Shown: positions 7,384 through 15,827 of the stretch, piece by piece
Position numbering within the stretch: position 1 is the stretch's first letter
How the letters are laid out: every line of letters starts with the position of its first letter
Source of the DNA: Flavobacteriia bacterium
Lineage (GTDB): Bacteria; Bacteroidota; Bacteroidia; Flavobacteriales_D; Crocinitomicaceae
NCBI GenBank assembly: GCA_947446925.1
Contig: CANFHU010000025.1
Span: forward strand, 1 to 40,442
DNA: 40,442 nt
Reading direction: 5' to 3'
Notes under the pieces: model-generated
The model's input: the letters and a program-made list of their open reading frames with translations, nothing else
The model's database searches: none
Told to the model about the DNA's origin: nothing
Position numbers and translations under genes: made by a program

Positions 7384-8169
7384 ATGGAAGAAAAATCTAC
7401 AATGTCGTTTTTAGACCATCTCGAAGAATTAAGATGGAGATTGGTGCGGTCAGCAATTGCCGTTGTCATTTTTACAGTGGTATTATGGATGTATCAAGAA
7501 TGGATTATTGACAATCTATTCTTATCCATGAAAGATGCAAATTTTATCACGTATCGCTATATGTGTTCTTGGTTCGGGGTTTGTACTCCTGAAATACCTG
7601 TTAAAATGCAAAGTACGACGATGGCAGGACAATTTTCCTACGCCCTAATGATGTCTATAATGGGGGGACTTGTACTTGCTTTTCCATATGTTTTCTACCA
7701 AATATGGTCATTTATAAAACCAGGTCTAAAACAAAAAGAAAAATCTGCGGTGAAAGGAATCGTTTTCTATGTATCCATTTTATTTTTCATTGGAATCCTA
7801 TTTGGATATTTTATTGTTTCTCCACTTTGCGTTCAGTTTTTTGGAACGTACCAAATTTCTAAAAAAATAGATAACATCTTCACGATAAACTCCTACATGA
7901 GCACTATTATATCTACAGTGTTCTACTCTGGATTATTATTTCTAATGCCTGTTATCGCTTATATTTTTGCTAAAATCGGTATAATTACCGCTGCATTTCT
8001 TCGGAAATATAGAAAACATTCTGTAGTTGGGGTACTAATACTTTCAGCCGTTATCACACCACCGGATATGTTAAGTCAAATCATCGTATCGATTCCGATT
8101 TTACTACTCTACGAAATTAGCATTCTTGTCACTGCAAGAGTGAATAAAAAACAAGCACAAGAAGCATAA
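7384..8169 (+). CDS. tatC: Sec-independent protein translocase subunit TatC
   Basis: 261 residues. This inner-membrane core subunit of the Tat pathway recognises twin-arginine signal peptides and exports folded proteins. The N-terminus has the family signature [17 protein letters not shown], and about six hydrophobic segments follow. Other family features are [21 protein letters not shown] in the conserved central region and [11 protein letters not shown] before the last two membrane segments. The periplasmic loop after helix 1 carries an insert with two cysteines ([12 protein letters not shown]), as in other Bacteroidota. A longer reading from a TTG at 7375 is possible. I chose ATG 7384 because MEEK...[10 protein letters not shown] is the usual beginning and a -7 box sits just upstream. 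The stop overlaps the lptB ATG by one base (TAATG), suggesting translational coupling. No tatA is present in the window. Confidence 0.96.
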
Positions 8170-8894
8170 TGTTACTACATACAGAAGAAATCCGAAAATC
8201 TTATAAAGGCCGTAAAGTGGTAGACGGCGTAACCGTAAAAGTAAATCAAGGCGAAATAGTAGGACTTCTTGGTCCAAATGGCGCAGGTAAAACAACTTCT
8301 TTTTACATGACGGTTGGTTTAGTAAAACCGGATTCTGGAAAGGTTTTTCTAGATGATTTGGACATTACCGATTACCCTATGTACAAACGTGCTCAACTGG
8401 GACTAGGATACCTACCCCAAGAAATTTCTGTTTTTCGTAAACTAAGTGTAGAAGATAATATTCTAGCAATTTTAGAACTTTCCAAATTAACAAAAAAAGA
8501 ACAAAAAGATCGCTTAGAACAACTTTTAGAAGAGTTTAGTTTGACTCATGTCAGAAAAAACTTAGGAAATCGATTGTCGGGTGGCGAAAAACGTAGAACT
8601 GAGATAGCACGCGCATTGGCTACAAATCCTAAATTTGTATTGCTAGATGAACCATTTGCAGGTGTAGACCCGATTGCAGTAGAAGACATTCAAAGTATTA
8701 TATCTGATTTAAAACGTAAAAATATTGGCGTTTTAATTACAGACCACAACGTACAAGAAACCCTATCAATTACAGACAGGGCGTATTTATTATTCGAAGG
8801 AAAAATATTAAAGTCTGGTTCAGCAGAAGAATTAGCGTCTGATGAACAGGTTCGTAAGGTATACTTAGGACAGAATTTTGTGTTACGTAAATAA
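8169..8894 (+). CDS. lptB: LPS export ABC transporter ATP-binding protein LptB
   Basis: 241 residues. This cytoplasmic ATPase of the LptB2FG complex powers extraction of lipopolysaccharide from the inner membrane toward the Lpt bridge. Walker A is GPNGAGKT (35-42). The Q-loop is in [12 protein letters not shown], a sequence typical of LptB. The ABC signature is RLSGGEKRR (from 135), Walker B is [13 protein letters not shown] (Asp160, Glu161), and the switch His is in LITDHNV. Length and the GLGYLPQE and [11 protein letters not shown] blocks separate it from generic ABC ATPases such as LivF. The start codon overlaps the tatC stop, so the two are almost certainly one transcript. No other lpt gene is in the window. 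Confidence 0.95.
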
Positions 8895-8906: not shown

Positions 8907-9047
8907 TTATTTTCTAGCTAAATCACCCGTAGTTTGTTGAATACTTCCGTAAGCATCACATTTACTACTATGTTTAGTTGCACCACAAGAGGTTAAAACG
9001 ACAGATAACAGTAAGCTAACAGCAAAAAAAGTAACGATTTTTCTCAT
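8907..9047 (-). CDS. Tiny (46-residue) lipoprotein
   Basis: A short ORF of 46 codons plus stop reads MRKIVTFFAVSLLLSVVLTS then CGATKHSSKCDAYGSIQQTT and GDLARK. It has a basic N-terminus, a hydrophobic stretch and a lipobox LTSC with Cys21, so it should be exported and lipidated. The mature part is only about 26 residues, with a second cysteine in CDAYG. Support for a real gene: a full-consensus promoter (TTG-N20-TATTTTTG, 9068-9098) lies 20 nt upstream, and the signal and lipobox are well formed. It stands alone, convergent with lptB (12-nt gap) and divergent from the barrel protein gene. The function is unknown. I recall similar tiny Cys-x-Ala-Tyr lipoproteins in Bacteroidota but cannot verify this here. 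Confidence 0.75.
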   Translation of the reverse strand: MRKIVTFFAVSLLLSVVLTSCGATKHSSKCDAYGSIQQTTGDLARK

Positions 9048-9067
9048 TTGTAAAATAATTAGTTATA

Positions 9068-9098
9068 CAAAAATAGAATTAATATATAAATTAAACAA
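9068..9098 (-). promoter_or_regulatory. Consensus promoter for the tiny lipoprotein
   Basis: On the minus strand, TTG (9098-9096), 20 nt, then TATTTTTG (9075-9068). Both elements and the spacing match TTG-N17-23-TAnnTTTG exactly. It points at the ATG at 9047 with a leader of about 15-18 nt. Confidence 0.65.
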
Positions 9099-9148
9099 CT
9101 CTTTCGTTTATTTGATAAACTATTATCCGAAAATAACTATTCAGGTAT

Positions 9149-10840
9149 ATGAAAATTGTAATTATTTTGTTTGTTAGTTTCTTCTATTTCCTGGCGCATA
9201 GCCAATCTGATTATCTTTTAACATTAAATTCTACGAGCCAACTTCCTATAAAAACTATTCGAACGCACTTTAAAGATAGTTTAGAATTAAAAACTTATGT
9301 CGCTCAACTTCGGATCAAATGTATTGAAAAAGGTTTTCTACTTTTTTCTATTGACTCCTTGAAATGTTCTGCAAGCGAAGCGAAAATCAATATTCATATA
9401 GGTCCAAAATTCAAAAAAATATTTCTTACGATCGATAATAATCAACGAAAATTTATCGCTAACTCTCCTGCCACAATCGAAAAATTAATCGGAAACAATT
9501 CTTTCACACCAAAAAACATTGCATTTATTTTACAAAAAATAGAAACGAATTTACTTAACGCAGGATATGCATTTGCAAGTGTACGTCTAGACAGCATCCG
9601 TTTTGAAAAAGACGATTTATATGCACATCTGCACATTGAAGAAAACAAGAAAATTAGGTGGGGAGAAGTTATCATTAAAGGAAATACATCTATACCTAGT
9701 AAATTAATTCAATCGTACATTCAAATTAAACTAGGTGATTTATTTCAAGAAGATCAATTACATAAAATACCAAAGCAACTTAATCAAATTCCCTTTATCA
9801 CTGAAACGAAACCATTAGAACTCCTATTCCAAGAAGATATCGTAGATCTCTACATATATTTAACTACAAAACCAGTTAGTTTAATTACAGGAGTACTTGG
9901 TTTACAACCTAAAACGCAGAATAACATAACATCTTATGTACTCACTGGTGATATTCGCGCAAAATTAGTAAACAGTTTAAAAAAGGGCGAAAGTTTTGAT
10001 TTGCAATGGAAAAACTTACAAGCAAACACACAACTTCTAAAAACAAACATTGCATTTCCGTCTATTTTCAGCAGCACTTTTGGAGTAGAAAGTCAATTCC
10101 ATCTTTACAAAAAAGATTCCACCTTTCTAGAACTTAAATCCGCATTAGCTATTCAATACATGCTTTCCAATGGAAACATACTTAAATTATTTTACCGGAA
10201 TTATCAATCTTCTTTATTATCAAGCGGACTAGTAAATACAACAAACTATGCAAATGTTTTCACAAATTATTACGGTCTTTCCATTCAAAAACAAACTTTA
10301 GATTATCTACCTAGTCCAACAAAAGGCTATCTACTTCAATTAGAGGGGGCACTTGGGTTACGAACTAAAAAAGATTCTATTTTACAAACTAACACAAAAA
10401 CAACCACTTCCAAAATTGATTTTCTATATAACCTTTACATTACTATACATAAAAAACATATACTTAAATTACATGCTGCTTCAGAAGTTTTAGTTGCTCC
10501 TTCCTATGCAAGAAATGAACTATTACGGTTTGGTGGAATGGTATCACAACGCGGATTTAAAGAGGAAGAACTTCGTGCAACATCACGTATGTTACTTTCG
10601 TTGGAATATCGATTTTTATTAGATCAAAACTCTTATGTATTTTTGTTTTTTGATCAAAGTTGGTATGAAAACAAACTAGCATCTACGCGAAGAGATTCTC
10701 CGTATGGATTTGGAGGAGGATTAACGTTTGGAACACAATTAGGCATGTTTTCGATTTCCTATGCATTAGGAAAACAACTTACAAATCCTATATTAATTAG
10801 TAATGGAAATATCCATTTTGGATATACATCTTATTTTTAA
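9149..10840 (+). CDS. Outer-membrane beta-barrel protein with POTRA-like region (BamA/TamA superfamily)
   Basis: 563 residues. A signal peptide (MKIVIILFVSFFYFLAHSQS) is followed by an N-terminal periplasmic region. At about 165-245 is a POTRA-like module (IRWGEVIIKGNTSIPSKLIQ, then LGDLFQEDQLHKIPKQLNQIPFI). The C-terminal half has the alternating aromatic pattern of a 16-strand Omp85/D15-type barrel, with RFGGMVSQRGFKEEELRATSRM near the lid-loop region. The final strand (IHFGYTSYF) ends in Phe, the usual BAM-recognised terminus. The protein is smaller than BamA (about 800) and has fewer POTRA units, so it is more likely a BamA/TamA-like paralogue than BamA itself. It ends 5 nt from the convergent MlaF-type gene. 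The substrate is unknown. Start ATG 9149 gives the best signal peptide. Confidence 0.85.
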   Translation: MKIVIILFVSFFYFLAHSQSDYLLTLNSTSQLPIKTIRTHFKDSLELKTYVAQLRIKCIEKGFLLFSIDSLKCSASEAKINIHIGPKFKKIFLTIDNNQRKFIANSPATIEKLIGNNSFTPKNIAFILQKIETNLLNAGYAFASVRLDSIRFEKDDLYAHLHIEENKKIRWGEVIIKGNTSIPSKLIQSYIQIKLGDLFQEDQLHKIPKQLNQIPFITETKPLELLFQEDIVDLYIYLTTKPVSLITGVLGLQPKTQNNITSYVLTGDIRAKLVNSLKKGESFDLQWKNLQANTQLLKTNIAFPSIFSSTFGVESQFHLYKKDSTFLELKSALAIQYMLSNGNILKLFYRNYQSSLLSSGLVNTTNYANVFTNYYGLSIQKQTLDYLPSPTKGYLLQLEGALGLRTKKDSILQTNTKTTTSKIDFLYNLYITIHKKHILKLHAASEVLVAPSYARNELLRFGGMVSQRGFKEEELRATSRMLLSLEYRFLLDQNSYVFLFFDQSWYENKLASTRRDSPYGFGGGLTFGTQLGMFSISYALGKQLTNPILISNGNIHFGYTSYF

Positions 10841-10845
10841 CTCAA

Positions 10846-11607
10846 CTAAATTTCATTCAATTTACTCTTTATCTGCTTCATAAATTTAGAAGCATACACA
10901 AAATCAATTACTTCAGGATTATTAGTTTTGATTATTTCTTCCTTTGTTCCCGACCACCAATTTTTACCTTGATGCATAAACGTGATATTATCTCCTATTT
11001 CAATAACACTATTCATGTCATGTGTAATTACGATGGTAGTAGTCTTAAACTCATGAGTAATATCCTGAATTAATTCATCGATTAAAATAGAAGTTTTAGG
11101 ATCCAAACCAGAATTAGGTTCATCGCAAAATAAATAATTAGGATTCATGACGATGGCACGAGCAATTGCAACACGCTTCTGCATTCCACCGCTACATTCC
11201 GAAGGAAATAAATTATTGCGACCACTTAAATTAACACGTTCTAAACAAAAATCGACTTGTTTTTGTTGTTCCCCCAAGGTCATTTTAGTGAACATCTGAA
11301 GCGGAAAACGAATATTATCCTCGACAGTCATGGAATCAAATAATGCAGCACCTTGAAAAAGCATCCCAATTTGTTTTCGAATTCCACGCATTGCTTTTTT
11401 GTCCATCGTACAAAAATCCGAACCATTGTATAATATCTGCCCAGAATTAACCGTATGTAAACCAACAATACATTTTGCAAGTACAGATTTACCTTGACCA
11501 GACGAACCTATGATTAAATTAACTTTTCCTTTTTCAAAGTTTGCATGTACATTGTCTAATACCAAATGTTCTCCAAACTTCTTGTATACCCCTTTAACCT
11601 CTATCAT
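10846..11607 (-). CDS. mlaF: MlaF-type lipid-transport ABC ATPase
   Basis: 253 residues. This cytoplasmic ATP-binding subunit is predicted to pair with the upstream MlaE-type permease in phospholipid transport between inner and outer membranes (Mla/MCE system). Walker A is GSSGQGKSV (34-42), the Q-loop GMLFQGAALFDSMTVEDNI is typical of MlaF, the signature is ECSGGMQKR with Cys in place of the usual Leu, Walker B is LFCDEPNSGLDP (Asp162, Glu163), and the switch is VITHDMN. Residues 80-100 and GLDPKTSILID favour MlaF over other ABC subfamilies. The start ATG overlaps the stop of the permease gene by 4 nt (ATGA). No MlaD (MCE) gene follows, which is unusual. Confidence 0.9.
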   Translation of the reverse strand: MIEVKGVYKKFGEHLVLDNVHANFEKGKVNLIIGSSGQGKSVLAKCIVGLHTVNSGQILYNGSDFCTMDKKAMRGIRKQIGMLFQGAALFDSMTVEDNIRFPLQMFTKMTLGEQQKQVDFCLERVNLSGRNNLFPSECSGGMQKRVAIARAIVMNPNYLFCDEPNSGLDPKTSILIDELIQDITHEFKTTTIVITHDMNSVIEIGDNITFMHQGKNWWSGTKEEIIKTNNPEVIDFVYASKFMKQIKSKLNEI

Positions 11608-12350
11608 TTTAATAAAAACATTTGGGTGATAAAAAAGTTAGCGATAAGTATTGCTACACTACTATTTACAACTGCTTTCGTGGATGAACGTCCAACATCA
11701 ATTGCTCCTCCTTTAGTATAATAACCATAGAATGAAGATATCGAAACAATTAAAAAAGCAAACACTACCGATTTTGAGAGGGCATAAATTATATCACTCA
11801 CTTTAAAAAATGAACGTAAACCAAAAACATACGTATCTGTTGAGGATAAACCCGCACCCAACAACGCTAACCAACCACCAAGTAAACTTAACCCAATGGA
11901 GAAAGTAACGAGTAACGGAAAAAAAACTACAGATGCCATAATTTTAGGGAGTACTAAATAATTCAATGAATTTACCCCCATAATCTCCAGCGCATCAATT
12001 TGTTCCGTAACACGCATCATACCGATTTCAGAAGATACATTAGATCCAACTTTACCCGCTAAAATTAATGAAATAATAGTAGGTGAAAATTCTAGGATAG
12101 TACTAGAACGGGTGATATAACCAATGGTATATGCTGGCAAATAGGGTAAATCCATATTCGCGGCTGTTTGAAGTGAAATTACCCCTCCCATAAAAACAGA
12201 CATCAACATTACGATAGGAAAAGACTCTATTCCAATTAATTGAATCTCCTCTAAAAAACGTTTCCAAAACATTTTGAATTTTTGTGGTTTCGTAAACACC
12301 AACCACATCATTCCGGAATACCGTCCAATATTTGCTATAATTCGTAACAT
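11604..12350 (-). CDS. mlaE: MlaE-type ABC transporter permease
   Basis: About 248 residues, inner-membrane permease of the MlaE family. It shows the family N-terminus NIGRYSGMMWLVF, an amphipathic helix, and the block IGIESFPIVMLMSVFMGGVISLQTA written across 60-85. It also has the diagnostic GKVGSNVSSEIGMMRVTEQIDALEIMGVNS near the middle and a C-terminal hydrophobic pair. I chose ATG 12350 (MLRIIANIGRY), which fits the family length. A TTG at 12389 would add 13 residues (MKQLLKLSLKLAE) and would reach nearer the divergent SprT-like gene. It is translationally coupled to the ATPase. It likely works in outer-membrane lipid asymmetry; the direction of transport cannot be read from sequence. Confidence 0.9.
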   Translation of the reverse strand: MLRIIANIGRYSGMMWLVFTKPQKFKMFWKRFLEEIQLIGIESFPIVMLMSVFMGGVISLQTAANMDLPYLPAYTIGYITRSSTILEFSPTIISLILAGKVGSNVSSEIGMMRVTEQIDALEIMGVNSLNYLVLPKIMASVVFFPLLVTFSIGLSLLGGWLALLGAGLSSTDTYVFGLRSFFKVSDIIYALSKSVVFAFLIVSISSFYGYYTKGGAIDVGRSSTKAVVNSSVAILIANFFITQMFLLK

Positions 12351-12430
12351 CTCTGCTAATTTAAGAGATAATTTTAATAGTTGTTTCAAAAAAGAAGGAA
12401 ACTGAACGATATTAGCGTTGATTTCTTGCT

Positions 12431-15295: not shown

Positions 15296-15505
15296 ATGAA
15301 ATTAATCATCGAGATACCAGATCATGAAGTGGCTTTTGGAATGAAAGTTCTGAATAGTTTAAACTTTATAAAAAAAGCAAAACCTATGTCTGAATCCTCT
15401 GTTGAATTATGGAATGATTTAAAGGACGCCTCAAACGATGTGAAACTTCACAAACAAGGGAAAATTAAACTTAAAACAGCTCAAGAACTATTAAATGAGT
15501 TATAA
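15296..15505 (+). CDS. Predicted antitoxin of a RelE-type toxin-antitoxin pair
   Basis: 69 residues, starting MKLIIEIPDHEVAFGMKVLN and ending TAQELLNEL. The short size, charged helical C-terminus and 11-nt overlap with a downstream RelE-like gene indicate an antitoxin. The N-terminal beta-strand (KLIIEIPD) resembles the first strand of small antitoxins common beside RelE toxins in Bacteroidota. I see no clear ribbon-helix-helix or helix-turn-helix signature, so autoregulation is only inferred. A promoter-like site precedes it. Confidence 0.75.
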   Translation: MKLIIEIPDHEVAFGMKVLNSLNFIKKAKPMSESSVELWNDLKDASNDVKLHKQGKIKLKTAQELLNEL

Positions 15506-15827
15506 TATTTTTCCTACAAATCATTTTGAAAAAGAACTCAAAAAACTAACTAAGAAATTTCCTTCACTGAAAAGTGAGTATGCAAATTTAATTGCTGAAA
15601 TTTCAGAAAATCCTGATACTGGAACAGACTTAGGAAATAATTGTCACAAAATAAGAATCTCTATTGCGAGTAAAGGAAAAGGTAAGCGAGGTGGAGCAAG
15701 AGTAATTACCTATGTTTACATAGACTTCAAAAGTGTTTATCTTTTAACAATATATGACAAGGGAGAAAAATCTGATATAAAAACAAACCAATTAAAGGAA
15801 ATGATCGAAAGTTTAGACCTAGATTAA
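15495..15827 (+). CDS. RelE/ParE-superfamily toxin
   Basis: 110 residues. It has the RelE fold pattern: N-terminal strand YNIFPTNHFEKELKKLTKKF, two helices, then the basic strands CHKIRISIASKGKGKRGGAR and VITYVYIDFKSVYLLTIYDK. The lysine/arginine-rich stretch (SKGKGKRGGAR) fits ribosome or RNA contact. Members usually cleave mRNA on the ribosome and are neutralised by the cognate antitoxin; whether this one is active is not known. The start codon lies inside the antitoxin gene (11-nt overlap), giving translational coupling. It converges on the B12 operon end with a 19-nt gap. Confidence 0.85.
   Translation: MSYNIFPTNHFEKELKKLTKKFPSLKSEYANLIAEISENPDTGTDLGNNCHKIRISIASKGKGKRGGARVITYVYIDFKSVYLLTIYDKGEKSDIKTNQLKEMIESLDLD

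Follow-up and report, generated by a model that had tools for sequence, protein, structure and literature searches.

A gene for a 46-residue lipoprotein lies beside, and divergent from, a gene for a TamA-like Omp85 protein in the 40,442-nucleotide stretch of Crocinitomicaceae DNA analysed here (the window). It is a member of a conserved, unnamed family of tiny lipoproteins of the class Bacteroidia. We tentatively propose that the protein faces the periplasm and acts as a small cofactor in the biogenesis of the outer membrane, probably for the neighboring Omp85.

The lipoprotein gene and its selection

The reading frame begins with ATG and encodes the precursor MRKIVTFFAVSLLLSVVLTSCGATKHSSKCDAYGSIQQTTGDLARK (Table 1). 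It has the n-region, hydrophobic stretch and lipobox cysteine of a signal peptidase II lipoprotein by sequence, and the assignment was made by reading LTSC together with the invariance of the lipobox cysteine in 30 of 30 aligned rows, rather than by a signal predictor. The initial annotation had described a frame of this length with an LTSC lipobox, a 26-residue mature part and a second cysteine within CDAYG, and we find all of these. The convergent lptB ends (8894) 12 bp from the gene. The genome carries a single copy, its sole other match having an E value of 0.58 and lying inside a 448-aa frame.

Table 1. Features of the lipoprotein locus, in coordinates of the window
Feature	Position	Strand	Basis
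CxAY lipoprotein gene, 46-aa precursor	8907..9047 (stop codon included)	-	ORF; matches in 12/12 same-genus genomes; purifying selection
Type II signal peptide, residues 1-20, LTS/C lipobox	8988..9047	-	Sequence; C21 invariant in 30 rows (alignment A1)
Mature part, 26 residues from predicted lipidated Cys21	8910..8987	-	Sequence; pN/pS 0.16
CDAYG motif, residues 30-34, with second invariant Cys	8946..8960	-	C30 and A32 invariant in 30 rows, Y33 at least 90%
Promoter-like pair: TTG (9096-9098), N20, TATTTTTG (9068-9075)	9068..9098	-	Box conserved in 49/74 loci; pair alone not above chance
Divergent intergenic region common to lipoprotein gene and omp85, 101 bp	9048..9148		Start codon to start codon
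TamA-like Omp85, 563 aa, signal peptidase I type signal; neighbor and proposed partner	9149..10840	+	POTRA, structure model, fold matches, linkage
lptB, convergent neighbor, kept in part of the window's family only	8169..8894	+	TIGR04406

A short frame in an AT-rich intergenic setting could be spurious, and the initial annotation had named the lack of a conserved frame in related genomes as grounds for discarding it. The frame is in fact conserved, with a match in each of the 12 same-genus genomes searched (E values of 8.5e-25 to 1.8e-5). In pairwise comparisons among seven sequences, that of the window and the six orthologues closest to it, dN/dS ranges from 0.06 to 0.43. The pooled pN/pS is lower for the mature part (0.16) than for the signal peptide (0.42), which marks the mature peptide as the product that selection maintains. 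The shifted frames contain 2-8 stops. The gene is thus under purifying selection, and the conservation of frame, length and motif together with this selection refutes a spurious frame, to which we give practically no credence.

The CxAY motif and the extent of the family

Members have the pattern lipobox Cys-x(4-10)-C-x-A-Y/F. In an alignment of 30 loci taken in search-rank order (A1), C21, C30 and A32 are invariant, and G22, Y33 and D42 are each conserved in at least 90% of rows. The motif reads CDAYG in 63 of the 74 loci of the window's bacterial family, with CDAYS in 5, CEAYG in 4 and CEAFG in 2, and the mature tail there is 25-29 residues long. In an alignment with other orders added (A3; consensus CPAYG) both cysteines, the alanine and the tyrosine are present in all 29 rows, but the rows from other orders were selected with a pattern demanding CxA[YF], so this invariance proves nothing; the rows of A1 were not selected in this way. 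The two cysteines are 5-8 residues apart in the alignments, and 4 or 10 apart in a few loci. A single non-lipidated cysteine that hardly varies suggests thiol chemistry.

A profile of the family matches 177 of 295 genomes of the class at E ≤ 1e-6. At E ≤ 0.002 this rises to 252 of 295, many by the signal peptide only, and looser counts generally (52/59 relatives at E ≤ 1 and 203/296 genomes of the phylum are further instances) mix in the signal peptides of other lipoproteins. We chose E ≤ 1e-6 as the family threshold for this reason, and it misses some true members. The motif is present in all 30 of the best class loci, although the profile was itself built from motif-bearing rows. In the sample of 296 genomes from the phylum, all 12 genomes with matches at E ≤ 1e-5 belong to the class of the window, and they are only 12 of about 73 genomes of that class in the sample, a much poorer yield than in the class sample. 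Among 11 matches other than the window in the phylum sample CxAY is present in 10, the exception being L038. The family thus appears to be spread across many families of the class, and to be weak or undetected in others; no convincing lipoprotein was found in f16, f17 and f98, where Omp85 is present.

L038 is one of three f15 loci read (with L053 and L057) in which the second cysteine is kept and is followed by proline, while the Ala-Tyr is lost; in this family the cysteine has outlived the Ala-Tyr. Together with L045 of f19, these diverged relatives read CPGN, CPSH, CPMT and CHSYG, and the boundary of the family is wider than CxAY. Tandem double copies of the CxAY lipoprotein occur at L223:6594-7083, L230:9261-9555, L237:7105-7408 and L301:560-854. 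The duplication suggests that the copies are paralogues with different uses, and in L230 and L301 the pair precedes brxC. A further type of paralogue, C..CSAYN with a longer N-terminal stretch, is found in f9 genomes (L080:7779-7946, L086:7505-7660), adjoining genes other than omp85 or brxC.

In tables with scores no Pfam or NCBIfam model matched the lipoprotein family at its cut-off, and in tables giving E values only the best was 1.4e-5. Pfam gave two matches to the window protein, both below cut-off, and those to LptM, entericidin and other NCBIfam models were set aside, as they too fall below cut-off and start in the signal peptide. A search of solved structures returned 11 sequences at E ≤ 1, the best at 0.057 and mostly over the signal region. 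A literature search of titles and the opening of abstracts, mostly of open-access journal papers, found no paper describing the family.

The upstream region

The initial annotation had assigned the gene its own full-consensus promoter. The exact arrangement TTG-N20-TATTTTTG occurs once in the window, vs a mean of 0.4 in shuffled sequence, and the looser TTG-N19..21-TANNTTTG occurs three times vs 4.4 expected from 50 shuffles, which is not above chance. We therefore dropped the two-element match in the window as evidence and relied instead on conservation of the upstream box. Of the 74 family loci, 49 have TANNTTTG in the 90 nt preceding the start codon, whereas 200 mononucleotide shuffles gave 5.6 such loci on average and never more than 11; this makes the promoter-like box credible where the motif by itself does not. 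In the window and its six closest relatives TTGTTTAATTTATATATTAATT stands in front of the TANNTTTG box. A separate box also fits the suggestion that the gene is independently controlled, but the two divergent start codons are so close that the lipoprotein gene and omp85 may be co-regulated.

The neighboring Omp85

Pfam recognizes a POTRA domain in the neighboring protein, and its match to the NCBIfam BamA model is sub-threshold (62 bits vs a cut-off of 297). In the predicted structure (mean pLDDT 83, pTM 0.65) we read by eye three POTRA-like units and 16 barrel strands. Comparison of this model with the PDB places BamA first and TamA from rank 27, with TM values of about 0.4-0.6. In the alignment the signal peptide ends before a near-invariant glutamine, with no lipobox cysteine. 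Judged by the model, the protein is a TamA-like Omp85, having POTRA domains and a predicted 16-strand barrel and not being lipidated. It is probably not BamA, because a separate BamA-like match is located at C1:452.6 kb of the genome, in an 875-aa frame. In the 20-row Omp85 alignment cysteine occupies fewer than five rows of every column, and beyond residue 25 it is absent from 5 of the 20 sequences. A conserved disulfide between the lipoprotein and Omp85 was considered and is unlikely for this reason.

Directly downstream of omp85, and convergent, the window has mlaF- and mlaE-like ABC genes (10846-12389). These are retained in part of the family, and mlaF is sometimes found on the lipoprotein side instead (L016, L031).

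Linkage of the lipoprotein and Omp85 genes

We scanned named genomes with an Omp85 profile (250 relatives, the best 80 kept); those nearest to the window are Crocinitomicaceae, including Fluviicola, Brumimicrobium, Taishania and many MAGs. In 74 of the best 80 loci the lipoprotein gene lies 88-558 bp upstream of omp85 and divergent from it. The remaining six have less than 250 bp of upstream DNA, so that the pair is found in 74 of 74 loci with enough upstream sequence. Searching from the lipoprotein gave a similar result, with Omp85 adjoining 27 of 30 loci, the window included; the exceptions are L015, near a contig edge, and L019 and L029, which lack Omp85. Lipoprotein genes away from omp85 in the window's family are found in G025, where the two are on different contigs, in G013, on an 8-kb contig, and in G031, which has two tandem copies and no omp85 within the 15 kb examined.

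The other neighbors are less constant. lptB is found in 59 of the 80 loci of the window's family, counting truncated ones, with mlaFE, sprT or others elsewhere, and some Omp85-paired lipoprotein loci have no match to lptB, tatC, recQ or mlaFE nearby. A partnership with lptB was rejected, given this count and its absence from the vicinity of most other lipoprotein loci read.

Across the class, the lipoprotein and Omp85 genes are no more than 1.2 kb apart in 61 of the 119 genomes with both coordinates among the matches listed. All 61 pairs are divergent; the gap measures 102-224 bp in 9 of them and 787-1201 bp in the other 52, and in each of the 14 long-gap loci read the intervening gene is ung. 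The two genes are on different contigs in 53 of the remaining genomes and far apart in 5. Of 60 class Omp85 regions of up to 18 kb that we read, 16 contain the motif, with 19 occurrences in all, and each occurrence is upstream of omp85 and in divergent orientation; this is a lower bound, since the pattern missed lipoboxes such as LESC.

The co-occurrence of the two proteins is moderate only. The Omp85 profile matches 249 of the 295 class genomes at E ≤ 1e-10, although 11 of these matches, with E values weaker than 1e-40, may represent fragments or BamA, frames of BamA size reaching 1e-12. Omp85 is matched in 162 of the 177 genomes with the lipoprotein (E ≤ 1e-6) vs 87 of the 118 others, giving an odds ratio of 3.8 (Fisher p 6e-5) in a statistic that ignores phylogeny. 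The 15 lipoprotein genomes that have no Omp85 match (8 shown to be negative and 7 inferred from their absence among the positives, some genomes being incomplete) and the 87 genomes with Omp85 alone argue against an obligate partnership. A CPAY lipoprotein with no Omp85 match is found in G136 and G178 of f14, G105 and G242 of f19 and, as inferred from absence among the positives, G246 and G305 of f21.

Bacilliredoxin, OsmC and a probable older gene order

A second recurrent neighbor is brxC/ytxJ, encoding bacilliredoxin. It follows the lipoprotein gene on the same strand within 300 bp in 28 of the 67 class genomes with both coordinates among the matches listed, and in 15 of these 28 the distance is 17-33 bp, match to match. 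It is also downstream in 7 of 15 weaker short-frame matches picked by hand, five of which are f14 genomes, and in two f15 genomes (G147, G182) it lies 62-64 bp downstream. brxC was found near none of 80 loci of the window's family, and in the genome of the window it is on another contig, C16.

Of the 30 best class lipoprotein loci, 25 have osmC nearby, 24 ung, 24 a conserved gene of 250 aa, 17 this Omp85 and 9 brxC. The identities of UDG, BrxC (PF11009) and OsmC are confirmed by Pfam. From these recurrent neighbors the old gene order was probably omp85 - ung - lipoprotein - brxC - osmC - 250-aa gene. It is complete in L100, and complete but for ung in L351. The family of the window has probably retained the omp85-lipoprotein pair of this order.

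The conserved 250-aa protein (L273:2238-2987 and relatives) begins with what resembles a signal peptide and matches no Pfam or NCBIfam model. In f20 and f21 the lipoprotein gene has another conserved setting, between genes that by eye are HAD-type phosphatase-like and decarboxylase-like (L089:7442-7564, L337:1489-1602, L341:1447-1596).

Cellular location

The lipoprotein had been described as a surface peptide, of undefined role. It is a lipoprotein by sequence, and surface lipoproteins are common in Bacteroidota (PMC5080379). However, the export signals described in that study require acidic residues shortly after the lipidated cysteine. Positions +2 to +6 are free of Asp and Glu in all 74 members from the window's family, and a basic residue, be it Lys, Arg or His, occurs between +2 and +9 in 73 of them. 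The export signal was worked out in families of the phylum other than that of the window. Given its absence here, the lipoprotein is more likely to be on the periplasmic face of the outer membrane, and we regard surface display as improbable. Of the earlier interpretation, the existence of a very small lipoprotein gene with its own conserved promoter-like box is supported, and the placement at the surface is not.

Comparison with known lipoproteins and Omp85 systems

Small lipoproteins that assist barrel machines are already known. LptM (YifL), a lipoprotein of Enterobacteriaceae, is likewise very small, has a short mature tail and assists a single β-barrel machine of the outer membrane, and thiol chemistry is involved in that system too, in LptD (PMC10567701). 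Unlike the present family, LptM from Enterobacteriaceae and other Proteobacteria has no CxAY or second cysteine described in the accessible text of that paper. The window protein scores 15.5 bits over residues 1-22 against the NCBIfam LptM model, short of the cut-off of 27.7; three of 29 members match at E ≤ 0.01, and the matches with coordinates span residues 1-23 at most.

PG1828 family lipoproteins (NF050142) are also small lipoproteins of Bacteroidota, and 7 of the 29 members match that model at E ≤ 0.01, the best at 1.4e-5. The best score is 25.7 bits vs a cut-off of 50, over positions 1-24 of the 59 in the model, and the longest of four matches extends to residue 38 and scores 18.9 bits. 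In the 11 loci of PG1828 type that we read, the tails are rich in Asp, Glu, Ser, Thr and Ala and lack CxAY, unlike those of the present family. Membership was rejected, as the match is mainly to the signal peptide and the type of tail differs.

Outer-membrane assembly in Bacteroidota has recently been shown to use subunits not known elsewhere, and BamH and BamM are lipoproteins that work with an Omp85 in the same phylum (PMC12611786). As described there, they build extensive structure outside BamA, whereas in the window a mature peptide of 26 residues is encoded next to a short Omp85 additional to BamA. Similar to that Omp85 is TamA of Flavobacterium johnsoniae (Fjoh_0402), with a signal peptidase I signal, three POTRA domains, a 16-stranded barrel and no adjoining tamB; the architecture is the same when compared by description, not by sequence (PMC12045153). 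The available portion of that report mentions no small lipoprotein for Fjoh_0402, and describes normal growth of the tamA deletion in the media tested. The present lipoprotein family matches none of the models tested; its wider membership and its neighbors omp85 and brxC go beyond the initial annotation. So small a lipoprotein, in which C-x-A-Y hardly changes across many families of the class and which is often tied to Omp85 or bacilliredoxin, offers a concrete handle on the role of the extra TamA.

Possible functions

Only the lipid anchor, the second cysteine and the Ala-Tyr are conserved, which suits a short docking peptide and not an enzyme. In the scheme that we favor, the lipoprotein would reach the outer membrane and most likely stay on its periplasmic face, where the short C-x-A-Y tail with its otherwise unpaired thiol would serve a machine that builds the outer membrane, either as a cofactor or as an assembly subunit. 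From gene order the best candidate for that machine is the divergent TamA-like Omp85, which the lipoprotein might serve as LptM serves LptD. Against it stand the genomes that have the lipoprotein but not that Omp85, the recurrence of brxC as a neighbor and the loss of Ala-Tyr in f15. We hold this scheme tentatively, with a role in thiol redox almost as likely and a lipoprotein without any dedicated partner not far behind.

According to the redox explanation, which is possible but doubtful, the second cysteine would sense or buffer oxidative thiol stress in the envelope, the ancestral unit would be the lipoprotein with brxC and osmC, and the order with omp85 would be inherited. The frequency with which brxC directly follows the lipoprotein gene in the class, the proximity of osmC to most of the best class loci and the invariance of the second cysteine in the alignments are all consistent with this, as are the f15 loci that keep Cys-Pro without Ala-Tyr, two of whose genomes have brxC close downstream. 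Yet brxC is not adjacent in 39 of the 67 class genomes or near any locus of the window's family, and the BrxC sequences read have no export signal that we could see by eye, so BrxC should act in the cytoplasm, apart from the mature lipoprotein. A general structural or bulk outer-membrane lipoprotein would need no dedicated partner at all, the gene order being kept by inertia and by the shared divergent promoter region. The tiny size and the conserved promoter box fit such a role, several families have lipoprotein loci that adjoin neither omp85 nor brxC, and many members in the window's family end in lysine (LASK in 22 of 74, for example). Braun-type lipoprotein (Lpp) has a conserved C-terminal lysine that is linked to peptidoglycan. 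In the present family the C-terminal residue varies (LAAL, QLPS and LAQR in the window's family, and unrelated ends elsewhere), which makes attachment of the Lpp type unlikely, and the concentration of conservation in C-x-A-Y suggests a specific contact; we consider a bulk role rather unlikely. There is a small chance that two of these ideas combine, with redox state, through the second cysteine and the brxC operon, coupled to outer-membrane assembly by the TamA-like Omp85; CxAY would then dock the peptide and the cysteine would act as the switch.

Elsewhere in the window, two overlapping small genes at 15296-15827, encoding 69 and 110 aa, resemble by eye a type II toxin-antitoxin pair.
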